A stretch of 64,000 bases of DNA from the NCBI RefSeq assembly GCF_005434975.1, contig NZ_SKCJ01000002.1, positions 248,001 through 312,000 of the forward strand, written 5' to 3'. Below, in pieces: positions 8,152 to 51,436 of the stretch; position 1 is the first letter of the stretch; each line of letters starts with the position of its first letter. The notes under the pieces were generated by a model. The model saw only the letters and a program-made list of their open reading frames with translations. It searched no databases and had not been told where the DNA came from. The position numbers were made by a program, and so were the translations under genes. Source of the DNA: Parerythrobacter lutipelagi (GTDB lineage: Bacteria > Pseudomonadota > Alphaproteobacteria > Sphingomonadales > Sphingomonadaceae).

Positions 8152-8311
8152 CTGTCGGCGGCGTTCGCAGGGAATGCCTATCCGCGCAGCGCCGCCGTCA
8201 GCGGTGCGTCTACCATAGGCGGACGAGTCGCCGGAAATTCTTTGCTGCAAGCCACCTTGCGATACGCCCCTTTCGCCGCTAGACGCGCGCCTTCTGCCAA
8301 GACAGGCATGC

Positions 8312-15889: not shown

Positions 15890-16138
15890 TTTTCACCAAT
15901 TCACCCGCAATTGTGCCACCGACGGCCTCGGCCGGTATCAGCGCGATCGCCGAGTGGGCTGCTGCTATGATCCTGAAACCAAGTTCAACACCAATGGGCT
16001 GCATGTCCAACCCTATGACTTAAGCTACGGACTTCGTCCCCTGACTTTAGGAAGTTAGTCTTTCGTTCTGGTCGGTGGACCTCAAGACTTGCGAGCGTTA
16101 GGCTGCAAGTTGGGCGGAATGATGTGGGGGCAGGCATA

Positions 16139-19100
16139 GTGAATAAATGGGCGCTAGCAGTCCTTGTGGCATTGATTGCGAACTTCGGGCTTTCATCCAT
16201 GGCCAATGCATCAGGCCCGATATCGCCCTATTCCTATGGCAGCGAAGTCGGGGATTTCGAAGAGGCGATCGCGATTTTTGCTGAAACGCTGGACGGGCTG
16301 AAGCGCAAGTCGATCGAAGAAAGCACTCGGAACCGTGCGGTGCCATCTGATGAGCCTTACGAAAGCTCATTCAAGAAGCGAGAGCGTTTCGAGGCGACCC
16401 GCGCCTTCGGCATACAATACCTTAAACTGCTCGCGCTTGCGGATTATGATGGAACCGACAAGCACACCCTGCTGTTTTCAGGCTCTGCCGATATCATCGT
16501 GGAGAAGCTCAAAGAATTCGCTGTGCCTCGCAAGGATGCGGAGGACACCGATACAATCTACAACCCGCTTGTGGCGGAACTGGTGCTGGAGATATCACGC
16601 CAGCGGCTGACGGCTGCGCAGCAGCCCGGAGAGGTGGAAACCGCCTTGCAGGATGCAGTGGCAGCCCTGGCATGGCTTGGGCGTAGCGAACAAATCGAGC
16701 CGATGCTGGCCGAGCATGGCCGATCGCTGGAAGAGCTGGCGAATTCTGACAGCGCAGCCGACCGCGCGATGGTCGAGTCTGCTCTGGAGGCATACGACGC
16801 ATCGGACGATGTCGATCAGGCCAACCGGCTGGCGATGATCCGGTTCGAGAAAATTCCGGCTTCTGACGAGGATGCGCGTTTCGAGCTGCTGGATGCCATC
16901 GAGAAGCGACTGCTCGGCGCGGACCGCAAAGCCGATGTCATCACGCTCTGGTCGCAAATGATCGAGCGCGGAGTCGTGCCAGCACCTATGGTCGAAGGGT
17001 ATCGCGCTTACATTGGTGTCCTGCTGATAGATATCGAACGTTTCAACGAGGCCGAGCCGGTCTTCCGGTCGCTGATTGATAATTACCCCGATAACCCGAA
17101 CGGTTACTATCAGCTGGCTCGTATTTTTAAGGCCCGCGGCGATCTCGCCGGTCTGAAGTCCGTGCAGGAGAAGTTCCCGCACATTCGCGAGCTTGCAGCG
17201 CTGAGAGCAGAAAAGCTCTTTGAATCCGGCGCGGCAGGCGAAGTCAGTGATGCGATTTCTGTCTACGAGACTGCACCGAGCGTTGTGAAGTCGGTCTATG
17301 ACGAGTTTTTCACCTTCGGTGGCAAAGCCGACTGGCTGTCACTTGGCGCGGTGATCGACCGTGCGCAGGAGGGAGCATCGAATGCGAGCGATGTTGAGAA
17401 TGCGATAATCCGCTTCAGCTCCGCCGGCGTGAATGAAGCGGTAGATCTTCTCCGCCCGATCTACCTTTCGCAGCCTGAAGCAAAGTCGGGGGAGGAGATT
17501 GACGCAGTCATCGCGGAATGGCTGGAATACGGGGAGCAGAACAGGAACCGTCCAGGCCAGACGCCGCGCGGTTTCGATGGGGACACCAGCAATCAGATTG
17601 GCGAGCTCGCATCAATTTCGCGCGACGGCTTACCACCTTCGATTCCCATGCGGGTGGTCTACGAGCGTCTCGACAACGCGCTCGCCAGGAATGCGCGTGC
17701 CCCCCATCCGATCTACTCGCGGACAATCTCTTTGGGCTGGATCGTTGCCCAAGTGCGCAGGGAATGGACCAAGGCACTCGAGCTGGAACGCCTCGCGGTG
17801 GATGCCCGTCCCGAAAATCCTTATGCGGTCAAGGAGCGGGTCGACTTCTTCGAGCGGTGCCCGACCACTGTCGCATCCTATCGCCGGTTTGAACCCGAAG
17901 GCACCTTGTTCGCGGACTTTGCCGAGTGCGATTACACCACTTACGACGCGGGGCTGCCGGCGGAAAGCATGGCGTTTCTGGCGCTACAGCACGGCGCTTC
18001 AATGGATGGCATCCTTGAAGCGCTGCAGCAGCAGGAAAATCGCCGCGAGAGCGAGCCCCTCGACGTGTTCGTCGCCTGGCGCGCGGGTGAGAAAACTGCT
18101 GATCCGGCACGGCAAGATTTCGTTTTCCGCGAACTACAGGAAGCGATGCTGGGGGAGGCCGGAAATGCGGTGATCCGAGGAGCTGCGGCGCGGATTGCCG
18201 CGCGGATCGACCCCGCACTCGTCGACGCCATCGACACATTTACTGCGCTCTCAGAAGATCACAATCGTATCGGCGACCCTGTTCCTCCTCCGACAGACAA
18301 CTCGGCCGAAGCGCTCGAGCGCCGCCGTCAGGAAAATCGAGCCGCCCGCGAGATTCGCGACAATCGCAAGGCCCGGATCGACCAGCTTGAAAGCGAAATC
18401 CGATCAGCCTTTCCGCGCTACTTTGACTTCATAAAGCCGCGTGCGCTCAGCATCGAAGAAGCGCGCGACAAACTCTCTGACGATGAGGCGATCGTTGTCA
18501 TCTACCCTGCGCAAACCGAAGTGCATGTGCTGGCGATAAGCAAGACCAATAGCCAGTGGCACGCGGTCCCCTATGCCACGATCGAGCTGTCCCGCGATGT
18601 CCGCAGATTGCTGTGGGATGTCGGTTCACCGGGAAATTATTCGCAGGAAGAAAAGGATCGCTGGGCGGCCGATGCCGGTCCGGGTTGGCCATTCGAGCGG
18701 TCGTTGGCTTTTAAACTCTACGACCGGATTCTCAAACCTGTCGAGGGGGTTTTCGAAGGCAAAACGCGCTTGTTCGTTTCCGCTTCCGGTTGGCTCGGTT
18801 CGATGCCTCTGGGGATGCTCGTGACCGAGGCGCCGAACGGGGCCGACAACGATCCCGATACCCTTCGCAACACCGCATGGTTGGCAGAGGAAATTGCCAT
18901 CATCAACCTGCCTTCGATCGCATCGCTGAGATTGCTCGATGAAGAGGATGCAGACCCGTCGCAGAGCGACTTCGCTCTTGCCGGCTTCGGAGATCCACTT
19001 TTGATCGGGGAGGCGGTTTCTCGGGGGGTGCTCAATAATTCGCGGAGCGGCGCGGGTGTGGTCCGCTCAGCCAAGGTCAACGACACCAACCTTCCCTTCG

Positions 19101-19729
19101 TCGAGCGCTTGCGCAACCTGAGCCGTTTGAAGGGAACCGAGCGCGAGCTCAATGCGATCAAGGAGGCGCTTGGCGCAAGTGAGGAGGACGTGAAGCTGCA
19201 GGAACGCGCGACTGAACCATCGGTGCGCGATGCAGACCTGAGCGATGTATCGATCCTCGTCTTCGCGACACACGGAGTCATGCCGCGCGAGATGGCAGGC
19301 CTTGATGAGCCGGGTTTGGTGATGACCCCGCCTCTAACCGCGAGCGAGGCCGATGACGGCTTTCTCAGCGCATCCGAAATAGCAGCGCTGAAACTGGACG
19401 CCGACTGGGTGCTCCTTTCAGCCTGCAACACCGCCGTGGGTGGGAGTGGAGCTACGTCGAACCTGACCGACGCATTCTTCTTTGCCGGAGCGCGCAGTGT
19501 GCTTGCAACCCACTGGTATGTCGATGATGATGCCGCCGAAGCGCTGACGGCTGCAACCTTCCGTACTCAGAAAGACAACCCTCGGCTCAGTCGTGCCGAG
19601 GCCCTTCAGGTCGCAATGCGAACCGTGCGCGACAACACGGATCTCGACGATAAAGCGGATTTCGGCGCGGCAAGTTGGGCGCATCCACGCTTCTGGGCCT
19701 CGCATAGCATCTATGGCGACGTCGACTGA
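16139..19729 (+). CDS. Exported TPR-CHAT (caspase-like) protein
   Basis: A large protein of about 1196 residues. GTG at 16139 gives a clean signal peptide (VNKWALAVLVALIANFGLSSMANA) with GGGGGCAGG upstream; GTG at 16124 is the alternative. The N-terminal two thirds is helical with TPR-like segments, such as AEPVFRSLIDNYPDNPNGYY near residue 310, and a charged helix near 725-755. The C-terminal CHAT domain has the caspase-like dyad His1045 (FATHG) and Cys1096 (LSACNTA), and the family closing block FFFAGARSVLATHWYVDDDAA. CHAT proteins are cysteine proteases of clan CD or inactive scaffolds; both catalytic residues are present here. Export to the periplasm is notable. It sits just outside the island end, with no cotranscribed partner. 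Confidence 0.88.
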   Translation: MNKWALAVLVALIANFGLSSMANASGPISPYSYGSEVGDFEEAIAIFAETLDGLKRKSIEESTRNRAVPSDEPYESSFKKRERFEATRAFGIQYLKLLALADYDGTDKHTLLFSGSADIIVEKLKEFAVPRKDAEDTDTIYNPLVAELVLEISRQRLTAAQQPGEVETALQDAVAALAWLGRSEQIEPMLAEHGRSLEELANSDSAADRAMVESALEAYDASDDVDQANRLAMIRFEKIPASDEDARFELLDAIEKRLLGADRKADVITLWSQMIERGVVPAPMVEGYRAYIGVLLIDIERFNEAEPVFRSLIDNYPDNPNGYYQLARIFKARGDLAGLKSVQEKFPHIRELAALRAEKLFESGAAGEVSDAISVYETAPSVVKSVYDEFFTFGGKADWLSLGAVIDRAQEGASNASDVENAIIRFSSAGVNEAVDLLRPIYLSQPEAKSGEEIDAVIAEWLEYGEQNRNRPGQTPRGFDGDTSNQIGELASISRDGLPPSIPMRVVYERLDNALARNARAPHPIYSRTISLGWIVAQVRREWTKALELERLAVDARPENPYAVKERVDFFERCPTTVASYRRFEPEGTLFADFAECDYTTYDAGLPAESMAFLALQHGASMDGILEALQQQENRRESEPLDVFVAWRAGEKTADPARQDFVFRELQEAMLGEAGNAVIRGAAARIAARIDPALVDAIDTFTALSEDHNRIGDPVPPPTDNSAEALERRRQENRAAREIRDNRKARIDQLESEIRSAFPRYFDFIKPRALSIEEARDKLSDDEAIVVIYPAQTEVHVLAISKTNSQWHAVPYATIELSRDVRRLLWDVGSPGNYSQEEKDRWAADAGPGWPFERSLAFKLYDRILKPVEGVFEGKTRLFVSASGWLGSMPLGMLVTEAPNGADNDPDTLRNTAWLAEEIAIINLPSIASLRLLDEEDADPSQSDFALAGFGDPLLIGEAVSRGVLNNSRSGAGVVRSAKVNDTNLPFVERLRNLSRLKGTERELNAIKEALGASEEDVKLQERATEPSVRDADLSDVSILVFATHGVMPREMAGLDEPGLVMTPPLTASEADDGFLSASEIAALKLDADWVLLSACNTAVGGSGATSNLTDAFFFAGARSVLATHWYVDDDAAEALTAATFRTQKDNPRLSRAEALQVAMRTVRDNTDLDDKADFGAASWAHPRFWASHSIYGDVD

Positions 19730-20873: not shown

Positions 20874-21832
20874 TGCCGAACATCGATACCGACTGCTATT
20901 TCCTCACCGCTTTCGTGCCGGTGCGCAACGAGGGCATGGTCGAGCATCGCGGCATCCAGTGCTCCCCGATCGACGCTGTGCGCAGCTATCTTGAACTGAT
21001 GCCAACGGCGTTGCAGTCTCCGGAGACTGAAGAGATCGGTCTCAACAGCCCGTTTGCGCGCAATCTGCGGACGCATTTCGCGCGGGTCGTGGTGCTTGAG
21101 CAACCATATTACAATGGCCGGAATCCCAGCAACCCGGTTATCGATCAGATCCGCAATGTCGATCTGCTCAAGCCGGAGCCGTCAGGGCAGCTCAGCTGTC
21201 CCTACCTGATGGTATTCATCGATTACGATCTCCTTGACCCTTCGGGCGAAGGTGAGCCGCGGCGCTATCTCGAAGAACTGTGGGATGACATGGCGGACGA
21301 GCTACGCTCGATTTTCGGATATTGCTATGGCTTCGAAGACGTCATCGATGGGCAGAGCTTTGCGACCTATCTGATGCGCTGCCAGCTCGATTCCAACATG
21401 TCCGTTCACGACTATTGGTGGCAGCCGGAAAAATTGCCCTCGTTGCCGTTCATTCCGTTGCTGGCGCTTCCGGTCTTGGCCCTTTTGTTGCCCTTGGCGG
21501 CAGCCTTGTTGGGATGGATACAGTGGCCGTGGGCGATTGCAGGGGCTGTGTTGCTGCCGCTTGCTGCCTTCTTCGGAGTCTATCGGCTAATTCTGGCGGT
21601 CGGGCCAAGACCATGGCCGGCTTCACCCGATGCATCTTTGCGCAATGTGCTCAAGGGCCTTTACCTGCAGCAAGCATTCACTGAATTCGCCATCGAGCAA
21701 CAATCGCGCGATCCAGCCGAACGCGGCGCAGCCTTCAGGACGTTTCTCGAGCGCAACCGCCCGGCTGATCTCGAAAGCCCGACTCAGCCTGCCGGTGTGA
21801 TCCGAAGCGATCTTAAGGGAGGCGGGGCGTGA
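20873..21832 (+). CDS. Hypothetical membrane protein, peroxidase operon gene 2
   Basis: A 319-residue protein with an N-terminal soluble domain of about 185 residues (YFLTAFVPVR near the start; LMVFIDYDLLDPSGEGEPRR in the middle). Then come two close membrane helices (PFIPLLALPVLALLLPLAAALLG and WAIAGAVLLPLAAFFGVYRLIL) and a cytosolic tail. I do not recognise the family. It overlaps gene 1 by one base, and its stop overlaps the peroxidase start by four (GTGA). That arrangement suggests the three proteins work together, perhaps with the two membrane proteins docking the peroxidase. Confidence 0.7.
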   Translation: MPNIDTDCYFLTAFVPVRNEGMVEHRGIQCSPIDAVRSYLELMPTALQSPETEEIGLNSPFARNLRTHFARVVVLEQPYYNGRNPSNPVIDQIRNVDLLKPEPSGQLSCPYLMVFIDYDLLDPSGEGEPRRYLEELWDDMADELRSIFGYCYGFEDVIDGQSFATYLMRCQLDSNMSVHDYWWQPEKLPSLPFIPLLALPVLALLLPLAAALLGWIQWPWAIAGAVLLPLAAFFGVYRLILAVGPRPWPASPDASLRNVLKGLYLQQAFTEFAIEQQSRDPAERGAAFRTFLERNRPADLESPTQPAGVIRSDLKGGGA

Positions 21833-23529
21833 GCAAGACCACTCGAACGTGTGCCCCGACAGTGCTTGACCTGGCCGACATACAAGGCGGCATCCTGCGC
21901 AATTACGGCACAGGCTTTGCTAAGGGGCGCAGCTTCTTTCTCCATGTCAGTGACGGGGTGAAAGGGCGGGCTTTTGTCGAAGCACTGCGTCCATTGGTTA
22001 CGACCGCGACCCGCTGGGAAGACGCGGAAAAGCACAAGCCGCCGGCCCCGTCAAGACATCCCACGCCGCATGACGTTGCGCAGGCGGAAGGGCTGCAGAC
22101 CTACCCGGGGCCAGCCCTGCAACAGAGGCCTAAAGCAACGCTCAATATCGCTTTCAGCCATGCGGGTCTGAACGTGCTTGGTGTTCCGGCAGTAACCCTG
22201 CAATCCATGCCGGTCGAGTTTGCTGAAGGAATGGAAGCGCGCGCGCCGTTGCTGGGCGACGAACCCTTCATGGAGGGCCGTGATACGGTTTGGCGCAATT
22301 CACGCGGTGATCGCCGGGTGCATATCCTGATCAGTATGTTTGCGCAGATGAACGCCGATGGGACGCCGTGCGCAGAACTGGGCGAATTGACAGGCAAACT
22401 CGAGGCCCTGTGCAATCAGTCCGATGGCGGGGTCACTATGCTCGATGGCGTCGGCCCGGATAACGCCCGCTGGCAGGATATGTCCGCCGTCATGACGGAA
22501 TTCGACGGACACGAGGTCCCGACGAACAAGGAACACTTCGGCTTTTCCGACGGTTACGGCGATCCGGTGTTCTCTGGCCAGTATCCGCCGGAGATCGAGG
22601 CCATCAAGATACGGGGCGGGGGCAAGCTCCTCCCCGATCTTTCCTGGGCACCGCTGGCAACCGGCGAATTCCTGCTCGGCTATGCGGATGAATCGCAAGA
22701 CACGCCCGTGGCGGCAAGGCCGCATGATTTCAGCCGCAACGGGACGTTTCTTGCCTATCGGAAACTGCATGAGAATGTGGCGGATTTCGATGCCTACATA
22801 GCGCGGCAGGCCGATCGCTATGCTCAGGCCATGGGGGTCCCGGCCGATGAAGCGTCGGACACGATCCGGGCCAAGATGATCGGTCGATGGCCTGATGGCG
22901 TGCCCTTGATGACCGCGCCGACTTATCGCGAATGGCAGGCGTTCAACGCGGAATTGCGCCAAGCTCGGGCTGACGGCGATCGCAAGAAACTGGCCCAACT
23001 CACGCTGGAATTCACGAACTTTCACTATTCGCAGGATGTCTCCGGCATTTCCTGTCCGGTTACCTCGCATATGCGGCGGGCCAATCCGCGTGATCAGTTG
23101 GGGCCGACCTATGACAAAGCCGGCAATTCGACGGTCGGATCATCAATCGTGGATCGTAGGCGCATCCTGCGACGCGGCATGCCTTATGGGCCCTATGCCC
23201 CCGGTGCGGAGCGTGATGTTGGGGAACAAGGCATTGTCTTCATTGCCATGTGTGCGAGCCTGTTTCGCCAGTTCGAATTTCTGCAAGGCCAGTGGATGCA
23301 ATACGGCCTCGATTTCAACGCCGGGAGTGACACTTGTCCGGTAATCGGCAACCATCTGGAACCCGACAAGCGCAAGCAGGTCATCGCCGCTGATCCAGCG
23401 TTGGGCCGACCGCCGTTCATCCTCGACGAACTGCCGCAGCTGGTGATCCCAAAAGGCGGGGACTATTTCTTCATGCCGAGTATGACAGCATTGCGGATGA
23501 TCGGGCAGGGTGTGATCGACCCCACCTGA
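21829..23529 (+). CDS. DyP-type haem peroxidase
   Basis: A dye-decolorising-type peroxidase of 566 residues using haem and hydrogen peroxide. Seen: the N-terminal DIQGGIL motif near residue 17, the GXXDG-type signature in HFGFSDGYGDPVF with its Asp near residue 239, and the likely proximal haem ligand His414 in VTSHMRRANPRD. GTG start, overlapping the upstream stop by 4 bases. There is no Tat or Sec signal peptide, so it is probably cytoplasmic or held at the inner membrane by its two operon partners. At 566 residues it is longer than compact bacterial DyPs (about 300-450) and closer to the large class. The substrate is unknown. Confidence 0.9.
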   Translation: MSKTTRTCAPTVLDLADIQGGILRNYGTGFAKGRSFFLHVSDGVKGRAFVEALRPLVTTATRWEDAEKHKPPAPSRHPTPHDVAQAEGLQTYPGPALQQRPKATLNIAFSHAGLNVLGVPAVTLQSMPVEFAEGMEARAPLLGDEPFMEGRDTVWRNSRGDRRVHILISMFAQMNADGTPCAELGELTGKLEALCNQSDGGVTMLDGVGPDNARWQDMSAVMTEFDGHEVPTNKEHFGFSDGYGDPVFSGQYPPEIEAIKIRGGGKLLPDLSWAPLATGEFLLGYADESQDTPVAARPHDFSRNGTFLAYRKLHENVADFDAYIARQADRYAQAMGVPADEASDTIRAKMIGRWPDGVPLMTAPTYREWQAFNAELRQARADGDRKKLAQLTLEFTNFHYSQDVSGISCPVTSHMRRANPRDQLGPTYDKAGNSTVGSSIVDRRRILRRGMPYGPYAPGAERDVGEQGIVFIAMCASLFRQFEFLQGQWMQYGLDFNAGSDTCPVIGNHLEPDKRKQVIAADPALGRPPFILDELPQLVIPKGGDYFFMPSMTALRMIGQGVIDPT

Positions 23530-26641: not shown

Positions 26642-27085
26642 TTACGCTGTCTGGCGGGTAAAGGTCACGTATTCTTTTTCTTCGCAGTGACCAGTGACCC
26701 ATGTGCGCCCTGACTTGAGCCAGGCATGAAATTCGCGGGTTTCCTCAGCGGCTCGCCTGGTGCCGATGTAGAGTTGCGTCTCGACCCCCCGCCGCTTGAG
26801 CATCCAGCGCGCGGCGAGCGCCTGCGGCAGGCAAACCAGCTCTACCGGGGCGTTGCGTACCGCGCGTCCAACGGAGCGAGCCACCAGGCGCACCGCAGCG
26901 CGCTCCTTCTGCGTCAGGACCGGCAATTGACCCTTCGCCTCGACCCCGTCGGCAATTTGATCGCGCCAGTGCTTCACCGGCACCAGAAGGACCAGCAGGC
27001 GCGCCCATGCCAGACAGGCCGCAGCTTCGATCCAGCCCAGCCATTCGCTGGCGGGCATGCGGGCCATGGTCTGAAGTTTGGACAT
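26642..27085 (-). CDS. Lasso-peptide B2-type (transglutaminase-like) protease
   Basis: A 147-residue protein of the lasso peptide biosynthesis B2 family (transglutaminase-like cysteine protease), which cuts leader from core in lasso precursors. The nucleophile Cys85 lies in ELVCLPQALAARWMLKRRG, and the catalytic His120 in EFHAWL. The third residue, often Asp in VVND-like sequences, is here within TWVTGH, a variant I recall in other B2 proteins. It starts 12 bases after the acs stop, so it probably belongs to the acs transcript, and it has a weak ribosome site. There is no precursor or cyclase gene nearby, but a lasso cluster lacking its own B2 lies 17 kb away at 43.7-51.4 kb. That this protein serves it is a hypothesis. 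Confidence 0.82.
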   Translation of the reverse strand: MSKLQTMARMPASEWLGWIEAAACLAWARLLVLLVPVKHWRDQIADGVEAKGQLPVLTQKERAAVRLVARSVGRAVRNAPVELVCLPQALAARWMLKRRGVETQLYIGTRRAAEETREFHAWLKSGRTWVTGHCEEKEYVTFTRQTA

Positions 27086-43500: not shown

Positions 43501-43751
43501 AAGACGAGATTGGCAACCGCGACGGTATCGGCGCGCGGATCGTCCTGACCACAGACGACGGCACCCAGCGGGTCCGGGATATCCGTCAGAGCGGCGGGTT
43601 CGCCAGTGGCATCTACCCGCAGGCACATTTCGGCATCGGTGACGCAAAGACGGCGAATCGCATTGAAATCACCTGGCGCGATGGCCGCAAATCTTCACTC
43701 ACCGGCTCATTCTCGCCGGGCTCTGAAGTGGTTGTGAAGCGTAGTCGCTAG
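40533..43751 (+). CDS. Permease fused to FG-GAP repeats and UnbV-like domain
   Basis: A 1072-residue fusion. ATG at 40533 has GGGGGGA 6 bases upstream (the open frame reaches a TTG at 40515). Residues 1-400 form about eight membrane helices, with GVCVNCAAPIARGLHSAGMR and VASPTLNVIVVSMSFALLPL resembling predicted permeases of the ArsP/DUF318 kind. From about residue 500 come FG-GAP/VCBS repeats with Ca-binding-like D-x-D/N-x-D-G loops (LNGDGRPDLFVS, DLDNDGDLDILSA, DIDGDGRPDIIIG, DLDQDGWQDLLVA, DYDRDGDMDVIR), with a Cys-rich insertion near 760-860. The end matches the ASPIC/UnbV module (IRQSGGFASGIYPQAHFGIG). The beta-propeller part should face the periplasm. I know no characterised protein with this architecture. 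Confidence 0.85.
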   Translation: MATAAPAEAGTSLTNMLRDKRIVLSVLLTVGVALFFWTQSRYPALNEKAAMGGDTNMSGIAFDEVLEWVPNSGLMWDITVNTVNWIYTNWKGMTFGVLFAACALTLLGLIERRGFNNRFANAALGAAIGTPLGVCVNCAAPIARGLHSAGMRLETTLSALVASPTLNVIVVSMSFALLPLHLATLKVAGALAFVLIGVPILTRFLHPKGLDDVSLMQMQGEVDDRRGWIARKLEALRPLPVPASDIDSWPKAFGWLAKTFGRNLLFIVAVTVPMMLLAGALGAILITFFDFEDFRRAVGVPSSTITILLAMTFIAAVAIFLPVPIAFDIILAVILVNAGWPVRYVMPLLFALGCYSVYSMMIVGRAISWRISFAMMGSLAAMAVLLGVAANWIDKSIQTERHEANIAYLAGATSLRAAEVDASGTLAAIDDSSIAPVSYLPVAATVTNDGPGSVQAFAIPAMNGPSAGADTGFSRLMGPEVGLDLPPSTTGFEVLEPFSFFWGIASGDTTGDGWVDLVMARSPATGGLAYFRNVGGKFQQSPLSLGPLDQQFIGSIVLSDLNGDGRPDLFVSAYLQGTHVFWNRDGEFAWDDRVDLDNGDAGLSGAPGFADLDNDGDLDILSANWTIGTTANNGNPYLLSSQDRIFWNEGDGTFDVQVLTGVPGESLASLIKDIDGDGRPDIIIGDDVSTADKIYLNQGDRKFRLAKKSDGIVPYLTRTSMSLDMGDVDNDLVDEMYVAQIAWDQWRIDSVKPELSYCAREEFGIENSEECFLQLRRRSLAATSAHSVYSDCEQIADPTYRWVCAAQSLTWRASFFGDLSDCPLLARLGGEWEKMCEVAARPRFENAEQTMKDEDYVGGIRKRNILFKRDKSGGFEDLTKAFNVAQPGWSWNSRFVDLDQDGWQDLLVATGMVYHRNTLPNAYYRNRGGIGFVRAEERFGLADNVPSTTYALIDYDRDGDMDVIRTSAVTQPIIHRNDAPRGGAIWVRLEDEIGNRDGIGARIVLTTDDGTQRVRDIRQSGGFASGIYPQAHFGIGDAKTANRIEITWRDGRKSSLTGSFSPGSEVVVKRSR

Positions 43752-44617
43752 GTAGATGGTGCGCGATCTAGCAGGCGCCGATAAGCTGCATGCCATAGTT
43801 TGAGAGCTGCCGCATAATCGGGATGCTGCGTCATTTTCCGAACATCGTCTGTCATGCGCCAGGGCTTGGCCTTGCCATTGAAGTGCAGCGCGCGGGCTGA
43901 AGCAACGCTTGGATATTCGATCCCACTCAGCCTCCCGCCATGGCCGACCATCCGATTGTATGCCGGACTGATCAATTCCACCAGATCGCCAAAGCAGCGA
44001 TTGAGCACCGCCTGATCCGTGTGATCGCTGACAACGTTATCCCAAGCCTTGGGGGCCAGCGATCCGAGCAAACATTGGCGCGTCTCTCGGGTGCGAAGCT
44101 CCGGCTTGATAAACATCAGTCCGGCGTTGAAGCTTTGAAACCCATCGGTACCGGCAGGCTGTGTCAGTTCTTCCAGCGTTTTTCGGTCGCGGGAATTTCC
44201 GACCAGCATCGCACGATCTGCGCACGCTGCTATCGGGGCGGAGACATTGGCGATCGGCTCGATCGATTTGCTGAACAACATATCGCTGTCTGCAAACAAG
44301 ACACCGCCGTTTCCATCGTCATCGAATATATCGAGCGAAAAGAAACGCCGATAGCGACTGGACAGTTTCGGGCGGTGTTCGATCAGATCCGCGATGCAAT
44401 GCCAAAGGTCCGGCGCAGGATTGCGGCATTCGGACTGGGGGAAGCGATGCCTCAGAACAGCCTGGTCTGCCGGTGAGAGATCATCATGGATGATCACTAT
44501 TCGGCCATCGAACCAGCGATTGTGACACAGGAAGGAATCAATCATGACCTGCGTGCCGATCAGGAAGTCGGCTGAGGTGACCGTGGCCAGTACCTGAGGC
44601 TTGAGTTTGTTCGTCAC
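43748..44617 (-). CDS. GT8-like glycosyltransferase (lasso cluster, last gene)
   Basis: A 289-residue putative sugar transferase. The N-terminal nucleotide-sugar fold opens with PQVLATVTSADFLIGTQVMI. A D-x-D metal/sugar motif lies in LFADSDMLFSK, and NAGLMFIKPE with TDQAVLNRCF matches retaining family-8-like enzymes. The GTG at 44617 follows the cyclase stop by 3 bases, so it is translationally coupled to lasso biosynthesis. A role in glycosylating the peptide is suggested by position only; action on another acceptor is possible. It overlaps the permease fusion gene by 4 bases, tail to tail. Confidence 0.75.
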   Translation of the reverse strand: MTNKLKPQVLATVTSADFLIGTQVMIDSFLCHNRWFDGRIVIIHDDLSPADQAVLRHRFPQSECRNPAPDLWHCIADLIEHRPKLSSRYRRFFSLDIFDDDGNGGVLFADSDMLFSKSIEPIANVSAPIAACADRAMLVGNSRDRKTLEELTQPAGTDGFQSFNAGLMFIKPELRTRETRQCLLGSLAPKAWDNVVSDHTDQAVLNRCFGDLVELISPAYNRMVGHGGRLSGIEYPSVASARALHFNGKAKPWRMTDDVRKMTQHPDYAAALKLWHAAYRRLLDRAPST

Positions 44618-44620
44618 CGG

Positions 44621-46285
44621 TCAAATGTCCAGAAACTGCAGCGCGCGGCGCAGGTGGCCCAGCTGCGGATTGCCTATCGCAGGCGGACGCCGCATCGCTT
44701 CGATCAACCGGTCCATGTCGAAAAACTCGGCGCGCTTCAGGGTACGGCGCCTGTCCTCCACCTCGTCGGCAATCGCTACAAAGGATTGCTGCAAGCGCGC
44801 AATCAAAGAACGCGTTCGCAAGTCTTCCAGCTTTGAAGTCTCGCTGCGTATCTCTTCCGGCAAAAGGCCGCGCATCATCTCGCGGAAGAACCAGCGTTTG
44901 GTCGTGCCTTGCCGGAAATGTTCGCTCGGTAATCGGTAAGCGAACTCCATCACCCGCCGATCGAGCAGGGGATAGCGATAGTCGATTCCATGCCGCCGCC
45001 CGGAGATCGCCCAATCCTCTATCCGGGCTGTCACCGATCCCAACTGGAGCAGCGATTGCATGGCATCGCGACAGGATCGGCTGTCGATCGCCGCTCTTTC
45101 CGGCAAGTCGACCGACGCGATGAACTCTCGCTTGAGGAAACTGCCGACAGGCGCTGAAGACTGCTTGTCCTTAGGGGGCAGAGCCTCTCGAAGACCGGCT
45201 TTGATCGCCGCCGCCATGCCGGCCGGTCCGCGCCGCGGGGAGAGGCTGGCAAGTTTTGAGAACTCCATTGCGCGCAGATATTCCGCGTGCAGGCCGCGGC
45301 CGTTGAAGCTTATGGCCTCGTCGCCGCCCCAGCCTGACAGCATCACGCCTATACCGTGACGCTCGGCATCTTGCTGCACCGCCAATTCGTGCAAGAGGTT
45401 CCACTGTGACGGGTGCCGTGTCCAGTCTTGCCGCCACAGGTCGAGCAACTGGACATCATCCAGTTGCGGTGCCCTAAAAATGTCTGGCGCAAGCGCGAGC
45501 GCTGCCTCGACACGCGGGCCCTCGTCAGTGGCGGCGGGCCCTTGCCAACCGAAGCCTATCGGCGGAGCTGCGGCACCGCGAAGCCGCGGCATGCCGAGCG
45601 CGAGAATGCTGGAGGAATCGAGGCCGCCCGTGACATGGATTCCAATTCTCTCATCTGTGCCCACCCGGTCGGCGACAGCTCGATCAAGCAAGTCGCGTCC
45701 TTCGTCCAGCAGTGCTTCGATCGAGGACGACGAAGCAGCCGGCGATGAGAATGGCTGCCACCAATGCGATAGTTTAGCTTCGCCGTTCCGTACTTCCAAA
45801 CGATGCCCCGCCGGCAAACGCCTGATTTGCTGGTAAAAGGTCCTGGTTGCATCGGTCCTGCGGCCCCCCACAATTTCTGATGCAAGCACTTCTTCGGACA
45901 GGGTCGAAATGCCGAGAGTGGTGACGAGCCCGGCGATATCGGAAGAAAAAAGGAATATTCCTCCGCTTACAGCGTAGAACAGCGGCCGCGCGCCGATATG
46001 GTCGCGGAATGCGTGAATCGAGCCGGACTTGCGATCGATAGCGATTAAGGCGTAGTCGCCCAGAAGTTCGGAGCAGAGTTCGCTGCCCCAGCGAAAAAAT
46101 GCCGCAGCAAGCAGTTCCGCATTATTCGCAGAATCTGGCAGGTTGAGCTTGTGGGCCAGAGCTGAACGTTCATCGAGCCGCGCATCAATGAAAAACTCGC
46201 TCTGGCCGCCAGGACCTTCGATTCGAATGAAAGGCGACTTGCCTTCAGAACAGTCTTTCGCCTGCAGCATGGTTAGCACACACAA
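44621..46285 (-). CDS. Lasso cyclase (asparagine synthetase B-like, C protein)
   Basis: Expected to adenylate the ring-acceptor carboxyl and form the isopeptide bond of the lasso ring. It is 554 residues. The N-terminal glutaminase-like part (ELLGDYALIAIDRKSGSIHAFRDHIGARPLFYA) lacks the Cys1 nucleophile and is short. The synthetase half has the PPi motif VTGGLDSSS near residues 218-226, SGWGGDEAIS, and YRYPLLDRRVMEFAYRLPSEHFRQG. A TTG at 46285 has GGAG 6 bases upstream; an ATG at 46270 lacks such a site. A stem-loop separates it from the precursor gene. The neighbours (precursor, PqqD-like protein, kinase) support lasso rather than asparagine synthesis. Confidence 0.88.
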   Translation of the reverse strand: MCVLTMLQAKDCSEGKSPFIRIEGPGGQSEFFIDARLDERSALAHKLNLPDSANNAELLAAAFFRWGSELCSELLGDYALIAIDRKSGSIHAFRDHIGARPLFYAVSGGIFLFSSDIAGLVTTLGISTLSEEVLASEIVGGRRTDATRTFYQQIRRLPAGHRLEVRNGEAKLSHWWQPFSSPAASSSSIEALLDEGRDLLDRAVADRVGTDERIGIHVTGGLDSSSILALGMPRLRGAAAPPIGFGWQGPAATDEGPRVEAALALAPDIFRAPQLDDVQLLDLWRQDWTRHPSQWNLLHELAVQQDAERHGIGVMLSGWGGDEAISFNGRGLHAEYLRAMEFSKLASLSPRRGPAGMAAAIKAGLREALPPKDKQSSAPVGSFLKREFIASVDLPERAAIDSRSCRDAMQSLLQLGSVTARIEDWAISGRRHGIDYRYPLLDRRVMEFAYRLPSEHFRQGTTKRWFFREMMRGLLPEEIRSETSKLEDLRTRSLIARLQQSFVAIADEVEDRRRTLKRAEFFDMDRLIEAMRRPPAIGNPQLGHLRRALQFLDI

Positions 46286-46334
46286 AAAGAGCTCCGCAGA
46301 TCAGTCTGCGAAGCCAACCGGATTCGAAAATGGT

Positions 46335-46361
46335 CAGGCCGCAAGACGCGCTTGCGGCCTG
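46335..46361 (-). terminator. Stem-loop between lasso precursor and cyclase genes
   Basis: CAGGCCGCAAG (46335-46345) and CTTGCGGCCTG (46351-46361) form a perfect 11-base-pair stem with a 5-base loop. On the minus strand it begins 7 bases after the precursor stop and is followed by ACCATTTTC, a weak T-run. Such hairpins after lasso precursor genes are known to raise precursor transcript over the processing genes by partial termination or 3' end protection. That role is inferred here. Confidence 0.7.
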
Positions 46362-46368
46362 CTACCGA

Positions 46369-46506
46369 TCACGATGGGTTGTAGAAGGGATCTTCGATTG
46401 TGCGGCGGACAGGGCCTGCCGCAGTGCGCTTTACCGGCGTGATCGAACGGACACTCGGTTTCTTCCAAGCGCTACGCGACGCATCAGAGCTCTTACGGTC
46501 AGTCAT
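46369..46506 (-). CDS. Lasso peptide precursor (A), 45 residues
   Basis: An unlisted short gene in the gap between the PqqD-like and cyclase genes. GGGGAAG lies 5 bases before its ATG. Predicted leader (residues 1-29): MTDRKSSDASRSAWKKPSVR then SITPVKRTA. It carries an aromatic-x-x-Pro recognition motif (Trp14, Pro17, Val19) with Thr28 exactly 14 residues after the aromatic, as in known leaders, where that Thr sits two before the cut. Predicted core (30-45): AGPVRRTIEDPFYNPS. Ala1 would join Glu9 to give a 9-residue ring and a tail DPFYNPS. The start AGP, acceptor at position 9 and C-terminal Ser recall paeninodin, whose last Ser is phosphorylated by an HprK-like kinase. If cleavage were one residue later, Gly1-Glu8 would ring instead. 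Confidence 0.85.
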   Translation of the reverse strand: MTDRKSSDASRSAWKKPSVRSITPVKRTAAGPVRRTIEDPFYNPS

Positions 46507-46538
46507 GTATCTTCCCCAAATCATTCAACTGTGTCTGT

Positions 46539-46568
46539 TTGATAGGCGCATCGCTGGCCAACATGCAA
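46539..46568 (-). promoter_or_regulatory. Possible promoter for the lasso precursor
   Basis: On the minus strand, TTGCAT (46568-46563) and TATCAA (46544-46539) are spaced by 18 bases, a fair match to sigma-70 -35 and -10 elements. They lie 32 bases above the precursor start, in the 79-base gap after the PqqD-like gene. The match is weak and could be chance. Confidence 0.3.
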
Positions 46569-46585
46569 GCAATTTGAAATATGCG

Positions 46586-46876
46586 TTAACTATCAACTTT
46601 GACGAGCCCCAAGCCATAGAGCTCCGTCACGAATTCGATTGTATCAATGCGACACTGCTCGGGCTCAACCTCGAATTCCTTTTCAAGGCTGCCGCACAAA
46701 TCGGCGATTGATTGGTCCGGCGCAAGCTTGAGCCAGATGCTGGATCCGGTTGGCTCGAAATGGAAGTATCTGCCGCTCTCGATATCCATCAATGACATTC
46801 CGTCGGCGACCTCGCTGTAAAGAACATCTTCGTTGCGAGTGACGACGGAATCGGGGGTAACCGTAAGTGTGCTCAT
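46586..46876 (-). CDS. PqqD-like leader-binding protein (lasso B1)
   Basis: A 96-residue RiPP recognition element of the PqqD family. It binds the precursor leader and presents it to the protease and cyclase. Typical features: VVTRNEDVLYSEVADGMSLMDIESGRYFHFEPTGSSIWLKL (beta strands of the winged fold), then helices SIADLCGSLEKEFEV and RIDTIEFVTELYGLGLVKV. It lies directly upstream of the precursor gene, an order less usual than precursor first. In many proteobacteria B1 is adjacent to or fused with B2, but here B1 stands without B2. Confidence 0.9.
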   Translation of the reverse strand: MSTLTVTPDSVVTRNEDVLYSEVADGMSLMDIESGRYFHFEPTGSSIWLKLAPDQSIADLCGSLEKEFEVEPEQCRIDTIEFVTELYGLGLVKVDS

Positions 46877-46925
46877 ATCCGCATGTTTCCAGCATATTGT
46901 CGCTGCCGCAAGTCTCGATTGCCGG

Positions 46926-47798
46926 TTAATCCTCTAAATAATCGAGACGGTCCATAGTGGCACGATGCTGCGAACGGACAGCGCGTTCCTGATCGGCAGT
47001 GAGTTCGCCCTTCGATCCGCCCACTTCGCCTGAACGAAAGAAACTGCGTCCGCCGGCAGGCCTTTCGCTGAACCCGGCTTTCGCCTCAGCGGCCGCAAGA
47101 CGTTCAAACCTGCATGCCTCGACGGCCGCAGACACGGCAGAGCGATCGGGCGCTATTCCGCAAAATTCCAGCGCCCGCGCGAAGGTTTCCTCGGTCTCCG
47201 CCGAGAGATTTTCATAGCGCACCAGGCACACCGGAATGTGATCCTGGTCGAGCCATGAGGATACGTTCGTCGACCAGCCTGCAAGGCGCTGTGGCACGGC
47301 CTTGCTGATCCGGTCGGCCCAGCAATCCTGCGCTGCCTGCTCGTCGGCCATGCGCGCGATGATCGCGTCCTTGGTCTTGCCTTCATGATGAGCGTAGGAA
47401 CTGACCACATCGCGCGGATCCCTGACGATGACGATCGCACCTGCGCTTGCTTCGGCCGGGAATAGACGGGTTCCATCCCGGTTTTCGGTAAAGGCGCTAT
47501 GGGTCTTCACAAGGTTGGGTTGCGGCCCACCGCCAGCGAACGCGCGATGCAGGCTGGCCTGATACGGTATCAATTCTTCCAATGTCATGGTCGCCGAATC
47601 GATTGCTGCATGATCATCGAGCAGCGCGCGATCGAAAACCGAAGGTGCGCCAAGTAGCGCGTTGAGATCGAGAGGTTCGTCAGGGCAAAGATATGCCGTG
47701 AACAGGGCGCGCAGCCAGGTGCTGCCGGACTTGGGATAGGAAGCAAGCCAGACAATGGTGCGGTCCGGTCCATACCGGGCAAAAGCGCCAGACGTCAT
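46926..47798 (-). CDS. Sulfotransferase 1 (lasso cluster)
   Basis: A PAPS-dependent sulfotransferase of 290 residues. The start at 47798 (GGAGCAG upstream) overlaps the kinase stop by 4 bases; the open frame further upstream is only a shadow of the kinase gene. The 5'-phosphosulfate loop WLASYPKSGSTWLRALFTAY and the 3'-phosphate motif IVIVRDPRDVVSSYAHHEG are both canonical, and the C-terminal GGRSFFRSGEVGGSKGELT matches the family's PAPS-contacting end. It probably sulfates the lasso peptide or a linked group; Tyr42 of the precursor is an obvious candidate acceptor. The target is inferred. Confidence 0.87.
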   Translation of the reverse strand: MTSGAFARYGPDRTIVWLASYPKSGSTWLRALFTAYLCPDEPLDLNALLGAPSVFDRALLDDHAAIDSATMTLEELIPYQASLHRAFAGGGPQPNLVKTHSAFTENRDGTRLFPAEASAGAIVIVRDPRDVVSSYAHHEGKTKDAIIARMADEQAAQDCWADRISKAVPQRLAGWSTNVSSWLDQDHIPVCLVRYENLSAETEETFARALEFCGIAPDRSAVSAAVEACRFERLAAAEAKAGFSERPAGGRSFFRSGEVGGSKGELTADQERAVRSQHRATMDRLDYLED

Positions 47799-48712
47799 AT
47801 CTGCTCCGTTGCCACGGTCTCGTTTTGATCGATACCGTGAAGGATCATCTGGGCAAGCTCTGAAGGTTCGACCCGGTGCGACGGGCGTAGCAGGTGGAAT
47901 ATTGGAACGTGCCGCACCGTTTTTGTCACGGTTTCGAATGCCCAGCGGCGCAGTTGCATGCCATCGATGAAGTTCTTGCGGTGGATAAACCGGGAAACAC
48001 ATTCGACCCGTTTCTCCGGCTCCAGCAATCCCATTTGCGGGTCAGGCCGATTGCTGGCCTGGAGATAGGTGATGGCGCGAATTGGCTCGGGCCGATCGTG
48101 GAATTGAGGCACTGAGCGGTAATATTTCGCCATGTCGCTCCTGACACGCGGGAGATCGGTGGAATCGTGACCGAGATAGTCGAGCGAGTCCTTCCACAGG
48201 CGCGTAGCGGGAAATGCAGGCACTGCGGTGGGAGCGCCCGTGCCGGCCAAAACAAGTCCGGTCACGTCATCCGCCATCATCGGCAAGCCAAGCGAAAGCA
48301 ATCCGCCGAGCATGGTTGATTTGCCCGCGCCAGACATCCCCATCACCAGCACTGCGCCCTTGTCTGTCAGGACGGAGCACGAATGAATCGGGACAATGCG
48401 TCGCTGCATTAGCAAGGCGGCCATGCAGGTGCCGAGCAAGACTGAAACCACTTGGCTGTCATCGGCGGTGTCAAACCGGTGATAGCGGATGGTGTTGCCG
48501 CCGGTGACCAGGAATCGGCCTGTCTCGTGAAAGATCGCAAAGAATCGGCCGGGTTCGGCTTCCCAATTGCGGAAGCTCGTTTGCAGCCCGGCAGTCTCCG
48601 GCACATCGCCAGCGCAGATTGTGACATCCGCGTCAGAGCGTTCCACCTGCGGGAGCGCCGGGAGAGCTATGTCGGAATCGAGAATGAACCCGTAAATTCT
48701 ATACGTCGGCAT
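47795..48712 (-). CDS. HPr kinase-like lasso peptide kinase
   Basis: A 305-residue protein resembling HprK/P-type serine kinases. An N-terminal domain of about 100 residues is followed by PIHSCSVLTDKGAVLVMGMSG with Walker A GMSGAGKST (125-133), and by Asp148-Asp149 in MMADDVTGLVL. A related kinase phosphorylates the C-terminal Ser of the paeninodin precursor, and the precursor here ends in Ser. It overlaps the hydroxylase gene by 14 bases and the sulfotransferase gene by 4, so it is embedded in the cluster operon. Whether it acts on precursor or finished peptide is unknown. Confidence 0.85.
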   Translation of the reverse strand: MPTYRIYGFILDSDIALPALPQVERSDADVTICAGDVPETAGLQTSFRNWEAEPGRFFAIFHETGRFLVTGGNTIRYHRFDTADDSQVVSVLLGTCMAALLMQRRIVPIHSCSVLTDKGAVLVMGMSGAGKSTMLGGLLSLGLPMMADDVTGLVLAGTGAPTAVPAFPATRLWKDSLDYLGHDSTDLPRVRSDMAKYYRSVPQFHDRPEPIRAITYLQASNRPDPQMGLLEPEKRVECVSRFIHRKNFIDGMQLRRWAFETVTKTVRHVPIFHLLRPSHRVEPSELAQMILHGIDQNETVATEQI

Positions 48713-49298
48713 GCGATCCCCGGGTGTCGGCCCACGCAGCCGGATCCGCCTCGTAGACTTCGAAGATCAGGTGGATCCGGTCCTCTGCGCCGGAGTTCTC
48801 TCCGCCATGGCTGACGATATTGTTCACCTCGTAGGCGATCCCTTGTTCAAGATGCACATGCTCGTCCCGAACGAGGAAATAGGCATTCTGATTGGTCACG
48901 AGCGGCACGTGGATCTTGTGCGTGCGCAAGTTGGAGCCCGCCCCGTCATAATGGGGATCGATCCGGTGCCCTGCTGCGAGCTTCGCAAGCATCGCCTTGG
49001 GGTATTGCGGTCGGGCGAAGCCATAGGGCTGGATCGCAGCATCCATCACCGGCAGAAGGATTGGCGCCCACACGTCCCACGCGGGATTGGCGTACCAGTT
49101 CTGCGGATCGAGATTGCTTTCAATGAAACGGAAAATGATGTGCTGCGTGTGATGGAAGACGGCAAAATCGTTCTCTTTCAACGCATCTTCCCCGGCCCAT
49201 GTGGCAGGTGAGATACGCTTTGCCATATTGATCAGCTGTTCGCACGGGACAGGCCCAAGACGCATTACAGTTGCAGGTTTGGTGACCTTGGGCACCAT
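48699..49298 (-). CDS. Aspartyl/asparaginyl beta-hydroxylase-like dioxygenase (lasso cluster)
   Basis: A 199-residue Fe(II)/2-oxoglutarate oxygenase of the Asp/Asn beta-hydroxylase type. The metal and cosubstrate residues appear in IDPHYDGAGSNLRTHKIHVP and in NNIVSHGGENSGAEDRIHLIFE, giving His residues and the late Arg. ATG at 49298 follows GGGGG by 8 bases; a TTG at 49304 is an alternative. The precursor core offers Asp10 and Asn14 as possible sites. Beta-hydroxylated Asp is known in at least one lasso peptide family. It heads the kinase/sulfotransferase run with overlapping genes. Confidence 0.82.
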   Translation of the reverse strand: MVPKVTKPATVMRLGPVPCEQLINMAKRISPATWAGEDALKENDFAVFHHTQHIIFRFIESNLDPQNWYANPAWDVWAPILLPVMDAAIQPYGFARPQYPKAMLAKLAAGHRIDPHYDGAGSNLRTHKIHVPLVTNQNAYFLVRDEHVHLEQGIAYEVNNIVSHGGENSGAEDRIHLIFEVYEADPAAWADTRGSHADV

Positions 49299-49353
49299 GC
49301 ACAAACCCCCTAATCAGCACTCCGCCGCAGGACTAGCAGGAGCGAGGCCTCGG

Positions 49354-50163
49354 TCAATCGACAAGGGCATATCCGAAATGAGCCAGAAGTTGTGCGTTTT
49401 CGCTGAATACCGCATTTGCGCGCTCGATCTCTTCCGAAGTCAGCCGTTCGATCTGTTCGGCGTTCATGTTCCGGAGCGGCTCGTCATAGCTGCCCTTGAT
49501 CGCAAGACGCTGTGAAAGATCGAGATCGTCGAGTTCCGGAACAAGACGCGCGATGCGGGCAGCCGTATCCTTTGGATCGTCACACAGTTCCTCATAGGTG
49601 AACGTGATCGACTGGCCGCCAAACCGTTCGATGTTGCGGCGTTGCTGCTTGAAGCAAGTCACAAGATGTCTCGCCCCGGTCTCTGCCAGATCTGGCGACC
49701 GCCGTTCCACATCCATCCGTTGCCAGCGCCGCAGGATCCCCTCGAGCGCGGCATACGGATTGCGCACCATGATAATGAACCGCGTGTTCTCGAATGCCTC
49801 AACCAACTGGTCTGCAATCAGCAGAAACGGAGGCGCTTTGGTATGGAACACCGGCGCGTCATTGCGTTTGGCGGTGGCCTGAACATACCAGGCTTTTCGA
49901 GTTCGCGCCCAATCATATTCAAGACTGTCCTGAAAGTACGCGACGCTTTCCTCGTTTGCGCCCCAGATCAGTGGCCATGGCGAATTGAGAGTTTGTGGTC
50001 CGGCGAAACCAACCACATGCTGACCCTCCCGTTCGAGGCTCCACACCTTGTTCGACTCGGCAATCGCCCGTGAAAGATAGGTCGAACCGCTGTTGTTCGG
50101 GCAAAGGATAAACAAATGCGCACGAACCGCTTGCGCAACGATCTCGAGATGCTGCCGGCTCAT
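49354..50163 (-). CDS. Sulfotransferase 2 (lasso cluster)
   Basis: A 269-residue sulfotransferase-fold protein. ATG at 50163 is chosen because the 5'-phosphosulfate loop follows quickly (LFILCPNNSGSTYLSRAIAE); the open frame extends to 50247 without support. A 3'-phosphate-type motif is seen in RFIIMVRNPYAALEGILRR, and a C-terminal family-like pattern follows. It is diverged from sulfotransferase 1 and may use a different acceptor. It is the first gene of the leftward lasso transcript, divergent from the nucleotidyltransferase across 100 bases that must hold both promoters. Confidence 0.8.
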   Translation of the reverse strand: MSRQHLEIVAQAVRAHLFILCPNNSGSTYLSRAIAESNKVWSLEREGQHVVGFAGPQTLNSPWPLIWGANEESVAYFQDSLEYDWARTRKAWYVQATAKRNDAPVFHTKAPPFLLIADQLVEAFENTRFIIMVRNPYAALEGILRRWQRMDVERRSPDLAETGARHLVTCFKQQRRNIERFGGQSITFTYEELCDDPKDTAARIARLVPELDDLDLSQRLAIKGSYDEPLRNMNAEQIERLTSEEIERANAVFSENAQLLAHFGYALVD

Positions 50164-50263
50164 GCGCGTTCGACTAAGGGAATGAATTCTTTGGCCATGG
50201 CGTGATCGTCCCTTGCCAGACGTCTGCAAAGCCAACAAGCAGCGCAATGGGGAAATGACACTG

Positions 50264-51436
50264 ATGAACGCCGACTTCGATCGAGAATTGCAGATATTGG
50301 TGTGCGCGATTGCGCCAAACCCCGCAGCGTCACCGTTTTGGGGCGTGCAGCACCGCGCGCCGGGACCAATCGATTGGACGCAATTCGAAGCGCTCGTTCA
50401 TCGCCACCGGGTTGGTGCACTGGTGTCTGCTGCATCAAGGGATCTTGGTTTGCCGCCAGAGTTGGCGACGCGTCTGGGTTCGGAAGAAGAGGCCAACGCA
50501 TCCGCCTATTTGCGCTCGATTGCTGTGCTGCGAGAGGTCGACCTGGCGTTTGGCAAAGTGTCGATCGACTGGCTGTTGCTCAAGGGCGTGTTGCTGGCCG
50601 AAGGGTTCTACGAACGGCCCGCTTTGCGAGAGATGATCGATATCGACTTGCTGGTAGATCAGGATCGCATCGAGGACGCGGAAACCGTGCTGCGGGGGCT
50701 TGGCTTCGAGCGCTATTATCCGCGCTACGACCTCAGCGCCGCACAGCGCACCAATTTCATGACCATCCAATCCGCCTTTGCATTCATCCGCAAGAGCGAT
50801 GGAGCACAACTCGATCTGCATTGGCGGACCATGCAGAATCCCCGTTTCCTGCCCGTGATCGACAACGAATGGAAGAAGATGACGGCCCGTGATGGTGCGG
50901 CGGGGTTCCCGGCACTGGCTGAGGACATCCACTTCACTTATGTTTTGGCGCATGGCGCAAAACATGGATGGTCGCGGCTCAAATGGCTGGCGGACGTTGC
51001 AAGAATGCTTTGTTCGACCGATGCTGCGGGCGCCGAGCTGTTGGCGGCGTCGCTCGAAAGGCATCGCATCGGGACAATTGCCGGGGCAGCATTCCGCCTG
51101 TGTAGATCGTTGTTCGGCACCGAACTGCCCACCGCATTGGTGCCTTTTGCTGAAACCGATGCGGCGACGCGGAACCAGCGCTGGGCCATGAAAATGATTG
51201 CGGCAGATATTCCGCACGGAGGAGCAGGGTTTGGCGATTTGCGCTACCTGGCCACGCGTGTGCGCAATTCCATGTCGCTGTCGGATCATCCCGGCTTCAA
51301 GCGGCAAGCCCTGTTGCGTGAACTCGCCAGACCTGCCGATCTGGAACAACTGCCGCTTCCCGCAGGTGCTAGCGGGCTGTTGGCGATAGCATCACCCATC
51401 CTGGCGCTTGGCCGCGCGATCCGCCCGGGTAAATAG
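50264..51436 (+). CDS. NTP_transf_5-type nucleotidyltransferase (lasso cluster)
   Basis: About 390 residues, with the uncharacterised nucleotidyltransferase family pattern: WLLLKGVLLAEGFYERPALREMIDIDLLV with the D-x-D metal pair, then LRGLGFERYYPRYDLS, an AQLDLHWRTMQNPRF block, and AHGAKHGWSRLKWLADVARML. Proteins of this family recur beside HprK-like kinases in lasso clusters, where they may add to the phosphorylated peptide; their chemistry is poorly known. ATG at 50264 suits the GGGGA site better than ATG at 50255. It is divergent from the rest of the cluster and followed by dsbD. Confidence 0.8.
   Translation: MNADFDRELQILVCAIAPNPAASPFWGVQHRAPGPIDWTQFEALVHRHRVGALVSAASRDLGLPPELATRLGSEEEANASAYLRSIAVLREVDLAFGKVSIDWLLLKGVLLAEGFYERPALREMIDIDLLVDQDRIEDAETVLRGLGFERYYPRYDLSAAQRTNFMTIQSAFAFIRKSDGAQLDLHWRTMQNPRFLPVIDNEWKKMTARDGAAGFPALAEDIHFTYVLAHGAKHGWSRLKWLADVARMLCSTDAAGAELLAASLERHRIGTIAGAAFRLCRSLFGTELPTALVPFAETDAATRNQRWAMKMIAADIPHGGAGFGDLRYLATRVRNSMSLSDHPGFKRQALLRELARPADLEQLPLPAGASGLLAIASPILALGRAIRPGK

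Follow-up and report, generated by a model that had tools for sequence, protein, structure and literature searches.

Paeninodin of Paenibacillus dendritiformis and the syanodin-type peptides are made by PadeK/SyanK clusters that have a split B1/B2 pair, a WxxP leader, an HprK-like kinase and a precursor ending in Ser; the kinase phosphorylates this C-terminal Ser on the precursor, and a set of one His, one Lys and an Asp-Asp pair (H-K-D-D) matters in such enzymes (PMC9266682). The WxxP motif is nearly invariant in paeninodin-like precursors, and paeninodin-type peptides are said to have no known role (PMC13381572). In the related pseudomycoidin (psm) system, which also has a kinase and a nucleotidyltransferase, PsmN adds a hexose to the phospho-Ser (PMC9266682). 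The bsf cluster of Bradymonas sediminis comprises A, B1, B2, C, D, K and N and is bordered by a gene for an FG-GAP repeat protein (PMC10368454), and canucin A is hydroxylated at its C-terminal Asp by CanE, a Fe/2-oxoglutarate enzyme that acts on a lasso precursor. Here we describe a locus in a stretch of 64,000 nucleotides of Parerythrobacter lutipelagi DNA (GCF_005434975.1, NZ_SKCJ01000002.1 positions 248,001-312,000, forward strand; hereafter the window, with positions counted from its first nucleotide) that very likely encodes a paeninodin-like lasso peptide with added tailoring.

The minus strand carries a run of genes for a sulfotransferase (ST2), an AspH-family hydroxylase, an HprK-like kinase, a further sulfotransferase (ST1), B1, the precursor, C and a GT8 glycosyltransferase, with a PF14907 nucleotidyltransferase divergent from the run at its upstream end; all open reading frames (ORFs) of the cluster are open. 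A preliminary description, made from the letters alone, had given the cluster a span of 43748-51436, which holds from GT8 to the nucleotidyltransferase and omits both the leader peptidase B2 and a permease-FG-GAP gene. The features are as follows.

46369-46506, minus strand: lasso precursor gene, 45 amino acids; leader codons 46420-46506, core AGPVRRTIEDPFYNPS codons 46372-46419 if Thr28 is position −2
46586-46876, minus strand: B1, PqqD-type leader-binding protein (RRE); PF05402 56.5 bits, cut-off 23.4
44621-46285, minus strand: C, asparagine-synthetase-like macrolactam cyclase; PF00733 96.9 bits, over cut-off
26642-27085, minus strand: B2, leader peptidase, detached; NF033537 (lasso_biosyn_B2) 58.2 bits, cut-off 33
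47795-48712, minus strand: HprK-like peptide kinase; H, K and D-D positions conserved, predicted target the C-terminal Ser
46926-47798, minus strand: ST1, sulfotransferase; PF00685 75.1 bits, 3'-phosphoadenosine-5'-phosphosulfate motif PKSGSTW
49354-50247, minus strand: ST2, second sulfotransferase, Sulfotransfer_3 type; PF13469 49.6 bits, with motif
48699-49304, minus strand: AspH-family Fe/2-oxoglutarate hydroxylase; PF05118 41.9 bits, HxD...H conserved
50213-51436, plus strand: nucleotidyltransferase; PF14907 152.4 bits, with a putative PsmN/BsfN-like role
43748-44617, minus strand: GT8 glycosyltransferase; PF01501 61.6 bits
40515-43751, plus strand: ArsP_1-like permease fused to FG-GAP repeats and an UnbV/ASPIC domain, by domain matches; candidate partner of the lasso product

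The precursor gene is absent from the annotation. It lies in the 300-base gap between the start of C (46285) and the end of B1 (46586), is directly preceded by GGGGAAG upstream of its ATG and encodes MTDRKSSDASRSAWKKPSVRSITPVKRTAAGPVRRTIEDPFYNPS. A hidden Markov model (HMM) built without the window sequence ranked this ORF first of the 1549 in the window (E 1.4e-19, runner-up 0.12), as did models built without the window's genus (E 2.4e-13, runner-up 0.18) and from four distant clusters only (E 2.8e-9, runner-up 0.013). Over the last 33 codons it differs from the copy in Parerythrobacter lacustris by 16 synonymous and 4 non-synonymous changes, and from that in the other same-genus genome by 11 and 7, codon counts that indicate purifying selection. 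These rankings and this pattern of codon differences led us to reject a chance ORF, and on these comparisons we regard the small gene as real. Alignment of the precursors of 11 clusters showed that all 11 share M1, W14, P17, P24, T28, Y42 and S45. The 45-codon gene with a good ribosome site, its asparagine-synthetase-like and PqqD-like neighbors and the lasso-leader spacing of Trp14, Pro17 and Thr28 had all been proposed in the preliminary description, and each is borne out. The checks on relatives that it had suggested also came out in its favor: precursor homologues stand next to cyclases in relatives, and both same-genus copies are intact, without the frameshift that would have spoken against the gene. 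A search of the window's own genome for further precursors returned this single one (runner-up E 0.6).

The leader agrees with the split-B class II lasso pattern of a [Y/W]xxP motif and a Thr at −2 of a core that starts with Gly, Ala or Ser (W14-P17, T28 and Ala30, with W, P and T kept in 11/11 cluster precursors), and with Thr28 at −2 the core has Glu at position 9, within the 7-9 range of lasso acids. B1 matched the solved lasso PqqD chaperone 9x90 with E 1.2e-5 and TfuB1 with 2.2e-4. C contains an Asn_synthase domain with its ATP motif, and carries the motifs TGGLDSSS and GWGGDE. The kinase His and Lys are kept in 25/25 aligned copies and the Asp-Asp in 24/25, a second alignment giving 14/14, although the NCBIfam and Pfam HprK models match it weakly. 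Ser is the last residue of all 29 precursors of the family and of 13/13 sister precursors; the 29 also share a Tyr at −4 or −3 and an acid 7-9 residues from the C-terminus. An HPr-rel-A or XrtA polysaccharide-type system was rejected, the scores lying far under the cut-offs (TIGR04352 kinase 20.4 vs 200 bits, TIGR04353 PqqD 16 vs 35, TIGR03108 amidotransferase 87.6 vs 816.9). Elsewhere in the genome (G000 C1:236721-237437), away from the cluster, is a second, weaker HprK-like match (1e-45).

B2 is encoded about 17 kb from the cluster but within the same window; its ORF encloses 26669-26977, the sole PF13471 match over cut-off in the whole genome, so a loss of B2 was rejected. Its Cys and His are kept in 13/13 aligned proteins. 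B2 is likewise detached in both same-genus genomes, about 4 and about 13 kb past the permease gene and at 74-77% identity, and adjoins the nucleotidyltransferase in loci L047-L052 (L numbers denote compared loci, G numbers genomes). The D exporter is present in L047, L048, L049, L050 and L052 and was not found in the compared stretches of the window, L045, L046 and L051. Absence of D is not peculiar to this group, since the mmv cluster is also without it (PMC10368454).

Several results weigh against assignment to the paeninodin-like lasso peptides. The lasso-specific models for B1 (NF033536, 53.8 bits, cut-off 80) and C (NF033535, the best match, 172 bits, cut-off 525) stay below their cut-offs, and the NCBIfam precursor models gave no meaningful match to the 29 family precursors. 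The third triad residue of B2 is not conserved in the alignment of 13 proteins, and no exporter near the relatives' D was found in the window's genome, where the best match reaches 32% identity. Asp and Asn are both missing from 7/29 family cores, and core positions 7-9 carry no acid in 13/29 precursors when Thr is placed at −2. We nevertheless favor the assignment because precursor homologues occur at 10 related clusters, coding is conserved, B2 exceeds its cut-off, the kinase has the H-K-D-D set and the C-terminal Ser is invariant; the lasso-type cluster that the preliminary description had proposed around this precursor is well supported.

In the order of steps that we propose, B1 would bind the 45-residue precursor via its WxxPxV leader, and the kinase, probably acting while that precursor is still linear, would phosphorylate the invariant C-terminal Ser (core Ser16), so that the peptide most likely carries a phosphate at Ser16. 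It is probably also sulfated, at the invariant Tyr13 and probably by ST1, and the nucleotidyltransferase and GT8 may add a sugar, perhaps onto the phosphate. The detached B2 would cut after Ala29 and C would close an Ala1-Glu9 ring, leaving a 7-residue tail to be threaded, with Phe12 and Tyr13 as plugs. With a kinase and two sulfotransferases encoded, the +80 mass shifts that the preliminary description had suggested looking for are apt. The start of ST1 is most likely 47798, overlapping the kinase stop; an alternative start at 48002, giving a longer ORF, would overlap the kinase. The true start of ST2 is probably inside the listed ORF. As for the AspH-family enzyme, beta-hydroxylation of Asp or Asn as a family-wide step was rejected because the seven cores noted above offer neither residue.

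Compared with paeninodin and syanodin, the window adds two sulfotransferases, the hydroxylase and GT8, its B2 is detached and no D is close by. The window core is also unlike the paeninodin core. The sulfotransferases, hydroxylase and GT8 are not described for psm in the literature consulted. In bsf, position −2 is Ile, phosphorylation is at Ser3 and the C-terminal residue is Asp, whereas the window precursor has Thr at −2 and a C-terminal Ser (PMC10368454). Although the hydroxylase recalls CanE, that enzyme acts on a C-terminal Asp, which the seven family cores with neither Asp nor Asn could not provide. Putative sulfotransferase genes were noted earlier in some Firmicutes lasso clusters (PMC8498205), and a text search of the review PMC9266682 for 'sulf' gave no match. 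The enzyme genes of the cluster are already in print: the same B2, nucleotidyltransferase, two sulfotransferases, aspartyl hydroxylase, PqqD, Asn synthase and glycosyltransferase appear among ortholog groups that co-occur with halotolerance in Pontixanthobacter (PMC10040529). Literature searches on precursors in trans, sulfated lasso peptides and ring size, which mostly did not extend to subscription papers, returned no description of the family among the papers listed.

A genome-wide B1 scan identified five relatives, namely Parerythrobacter lacustris, three Pontixanthobacter and one Erythrobacter metagenome-assembled genome. With the hydroxylase as query, 397 genomes of the family yielded 26 places in 25 genomes, and lasso genes accompany it at 15 of these in 14 genomes (the window, L045-L054, L056, L057, L058 and L069; L010-L014 are identical to L045, L051, L049, L052 and L050). 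At ten places (L055, L060-L068) tblastn detected no cluster gene, and the short contig L059 gave just an exporter-like match. A plasmid search with the AspH protein returned one record, from Asticcacaulis, at 39.5% identity. Of the 14 other lasso places, 10 have a precursor of this family within or next to the cluster; no precursor was found in the B1-C gap of L052 or of L050, whose contig ends early, and those of L058 and L069 are divergent. L069 also holds two AspH-type hydroxylases and two kinases. Strong precursor matches occur in at least 13 of the 397 genomes, each with this cluster, the precursors that built the family profile A2 matching it by construction; G011 and G272 gave weak, partial matches. 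A class-wide precursor search of 385 genomes recovered the window and, among the candidates scored, two weak matches, one of them (L120) in another kinase-containing lasso locus. The HprK-like kinase family is far wider, being found in at least 106 of 382 genomes. These large searches scored part of the first-look candidates (6 per genome for the kinase, 17-18 for the precursor), so that absences in them are not proof.

Six related genomes encode 18 further precursors away from the enzymes, as found by a precursor-profile search: seven in G321 (P. aquaemixtae), four in G221 (P. luteolus), three in the draft G342, two in G044 and one each in G290 and G015. Fifteen of the 18 lie 0.36-1.35 Mb from the cluster by coordinates (0.36 and 1.35 Mb in G321, about 1.19 Mb in G221, and about 0.5, 1.3 and 1.2 Mb in G044, G290 and G015), and the three of G342, an assembly of 570 contigs, may be cis or trans. 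The flanks of the precursor arrays, scanned in L115-L119, contained no cluster enzyme and only generic ABC matches; for G044 and G015 the view of the trans loci was confined to stretches of about 3 kb. Each of 11 genomes has one cluster-type cyclase, other matches being at 24-30% identity (G342 fragments aside), and the extra 30% match of G258 comes from another lasso locus of that genome, L081. G321 has one B2 and, among the matches listed, one kinase, and the G221 cluster has no precursor in its B1-C gap. Because the enzyme sets are single and that gap is without a precursor, processing of the distant precursors in trans would be the simplest reading. Prochlorosins offer a precedent, with one enzyme set and many precursors elsewhere in the genome, though these are lanthipeptides and not macrolactam lasso peptides. 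A more speculative reading, less likely than not, would be a combinatorial pathway in which one enzyme set per genome matures adjacent precursors and those of arrays hundreds of kilobases away into peptides with a constant tail (acid, Tyr, phospho-Ser) and 8-11-residue rings, and in which the permease-FG-GAP-UnbV protein is dedicated to handling these phosphorylated and sulfated peptides. In that scheme the genome of the window retains a one-precursor form.

The position of the ring depends on the cut site. With the core start set by Thr at −2, the first acid of the 29 precursors falls at position 8 in 3, 9 in 12, 10 in 11, 11 in 2 and 4 in 1. Rings of 7, 8 and 9 residues are found in known structures (PMC13352647), and engineering has yielded one of ten residues (PMC8498205). 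The clash in 13 of 29 precursors points either to an unusual cut or to unusual rings, and some of the distant precursors are predicted to have rings larger than those characterized so far. A cut one residue later in the same system (Thr at −3, core GPVRRTIEDPFYNPS, ring Gly1-Glu8 or Asp9) would bring 27/29 precursors rather than 16/29 into the known range, leaving two without an acid at 7-9; it would place Trp at −17, where leader motifs have been reported (PMC10368454), and the residue at T+3 is Gly or Ala across the whole alignment. This later cut would violate the Thr(−2) rule, often with Arg then at −2, and the usual rule puts the acid at 8 or 9 in 13/13 sister precursors, where the −2 residue was chosen by pattern and not blind. 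In paeninodin the sequence is T-x-A-G, with the cut before Ala. We therefore hold the later cut to be possible but the less probable choice for the window peptide, which fits both readings, and favor the Ala1-Glu9 ring of the preliminary description. That ring obeys the rule and has Glu at 9, though the rule itself fails to give a 7-9 ring in those 13 relatives, and a Gly31-Glu38 ring would be the counterpart that this clash leaves available. Sister cyclases with altered GxGGDE-like motifs were observed beside I/V(−2) precursors in L075, L078, L084 and L076.

A ring of 10-11 residues, should it exist, might not be threaded, and the clusters for linear polyphosphorylated peptides (LPP) and for paeninodin have B1, kinase and nucleotidyltransferase in common (PMC13381572), so the product might be phosphorylated and cyclized but unthreaded, or linear like the LPP peptides of Bacillota. 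LPP clusters are without a macrolactam cyclase, however, while the locus described here encodes a C whose motifs are conserved and each of 11 genomes retains one, which makes such a product improbable. The displaced B2 and the D exporter missing from the stretches named above, with the best exporter of the genome at 32%, could alternatively mark a locus decaying in this lineage. B2 is nevertheless intact and retained in all three same-genus genomes, the cluster ORFs are open and the precursor appears to be under purifying selection, and we judge decay very unlikely.

The permease-FG-GAP-UnbV gene occurs at 23 places in 21 of the 397 genomes, and at 19 of these it is near lasso genes (the window, ten cluster loci, L074-L078, L081, L082 and L084), a count that includes shared descent and loci (L074-L084) chosen for carrying the gene. 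Given how much wider the kinase family is, the permease marks a subset of it. The protein is a candidate for a role in export, immunity or recognition. It might instead be a mere syntenic neighbor with no part in the pathway: common descent accounts for the shared flank in the window's genus and g37, the stretches compared for L079 and L080 contain the gene but no lasso enzyme, and the FG-GAP gene bordering bsf was presumed uninvolved (PMC10368454). Its positions and orientations differ in L056, L057 and L074-L084, and at a twentieth place, L083, two precursor-like ORFs (7146-7313 and 7992-8231) adjoin it, and the 20-kb stretch holds no lasso enzyme; the remaining place is one contig fragment. 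On this evidence a bystander seems rather unlikely. Literature searches linking lasso peptides to FG-GAP returned only PMC10368454, those for the VCBS repeat returned nothing and those for CRTAC1 only unrelated work. A single-sequence AlphaFold model of the 1078-residue protein had a mean predicted local distance difference test score of 37.4 and was not used. Elsewhere in the window, the plus strand encodes a YadA-head trimeric-adhesin-like protein with 16 head repeats (12051-15545), a CHAT-domain protein with a weak TPR match (16124-19729) and a DyP-type peroxidase-like protein (21829-23529).

If these assignments are correct, the locus belongs to a family of phospho-/sulfo-lasso peptides whose enzymes naturally take several ring sizes and distant precursors. 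Because a change of ring size by one residue is reported to lower yields strongly in known systems (PMC13352647), enzymes of this kind would be of use in engineering and would allow a test of what determines the size of the ring. The permease-FG-GAP protein would be a testable candidate for the missing partner of these peptides.

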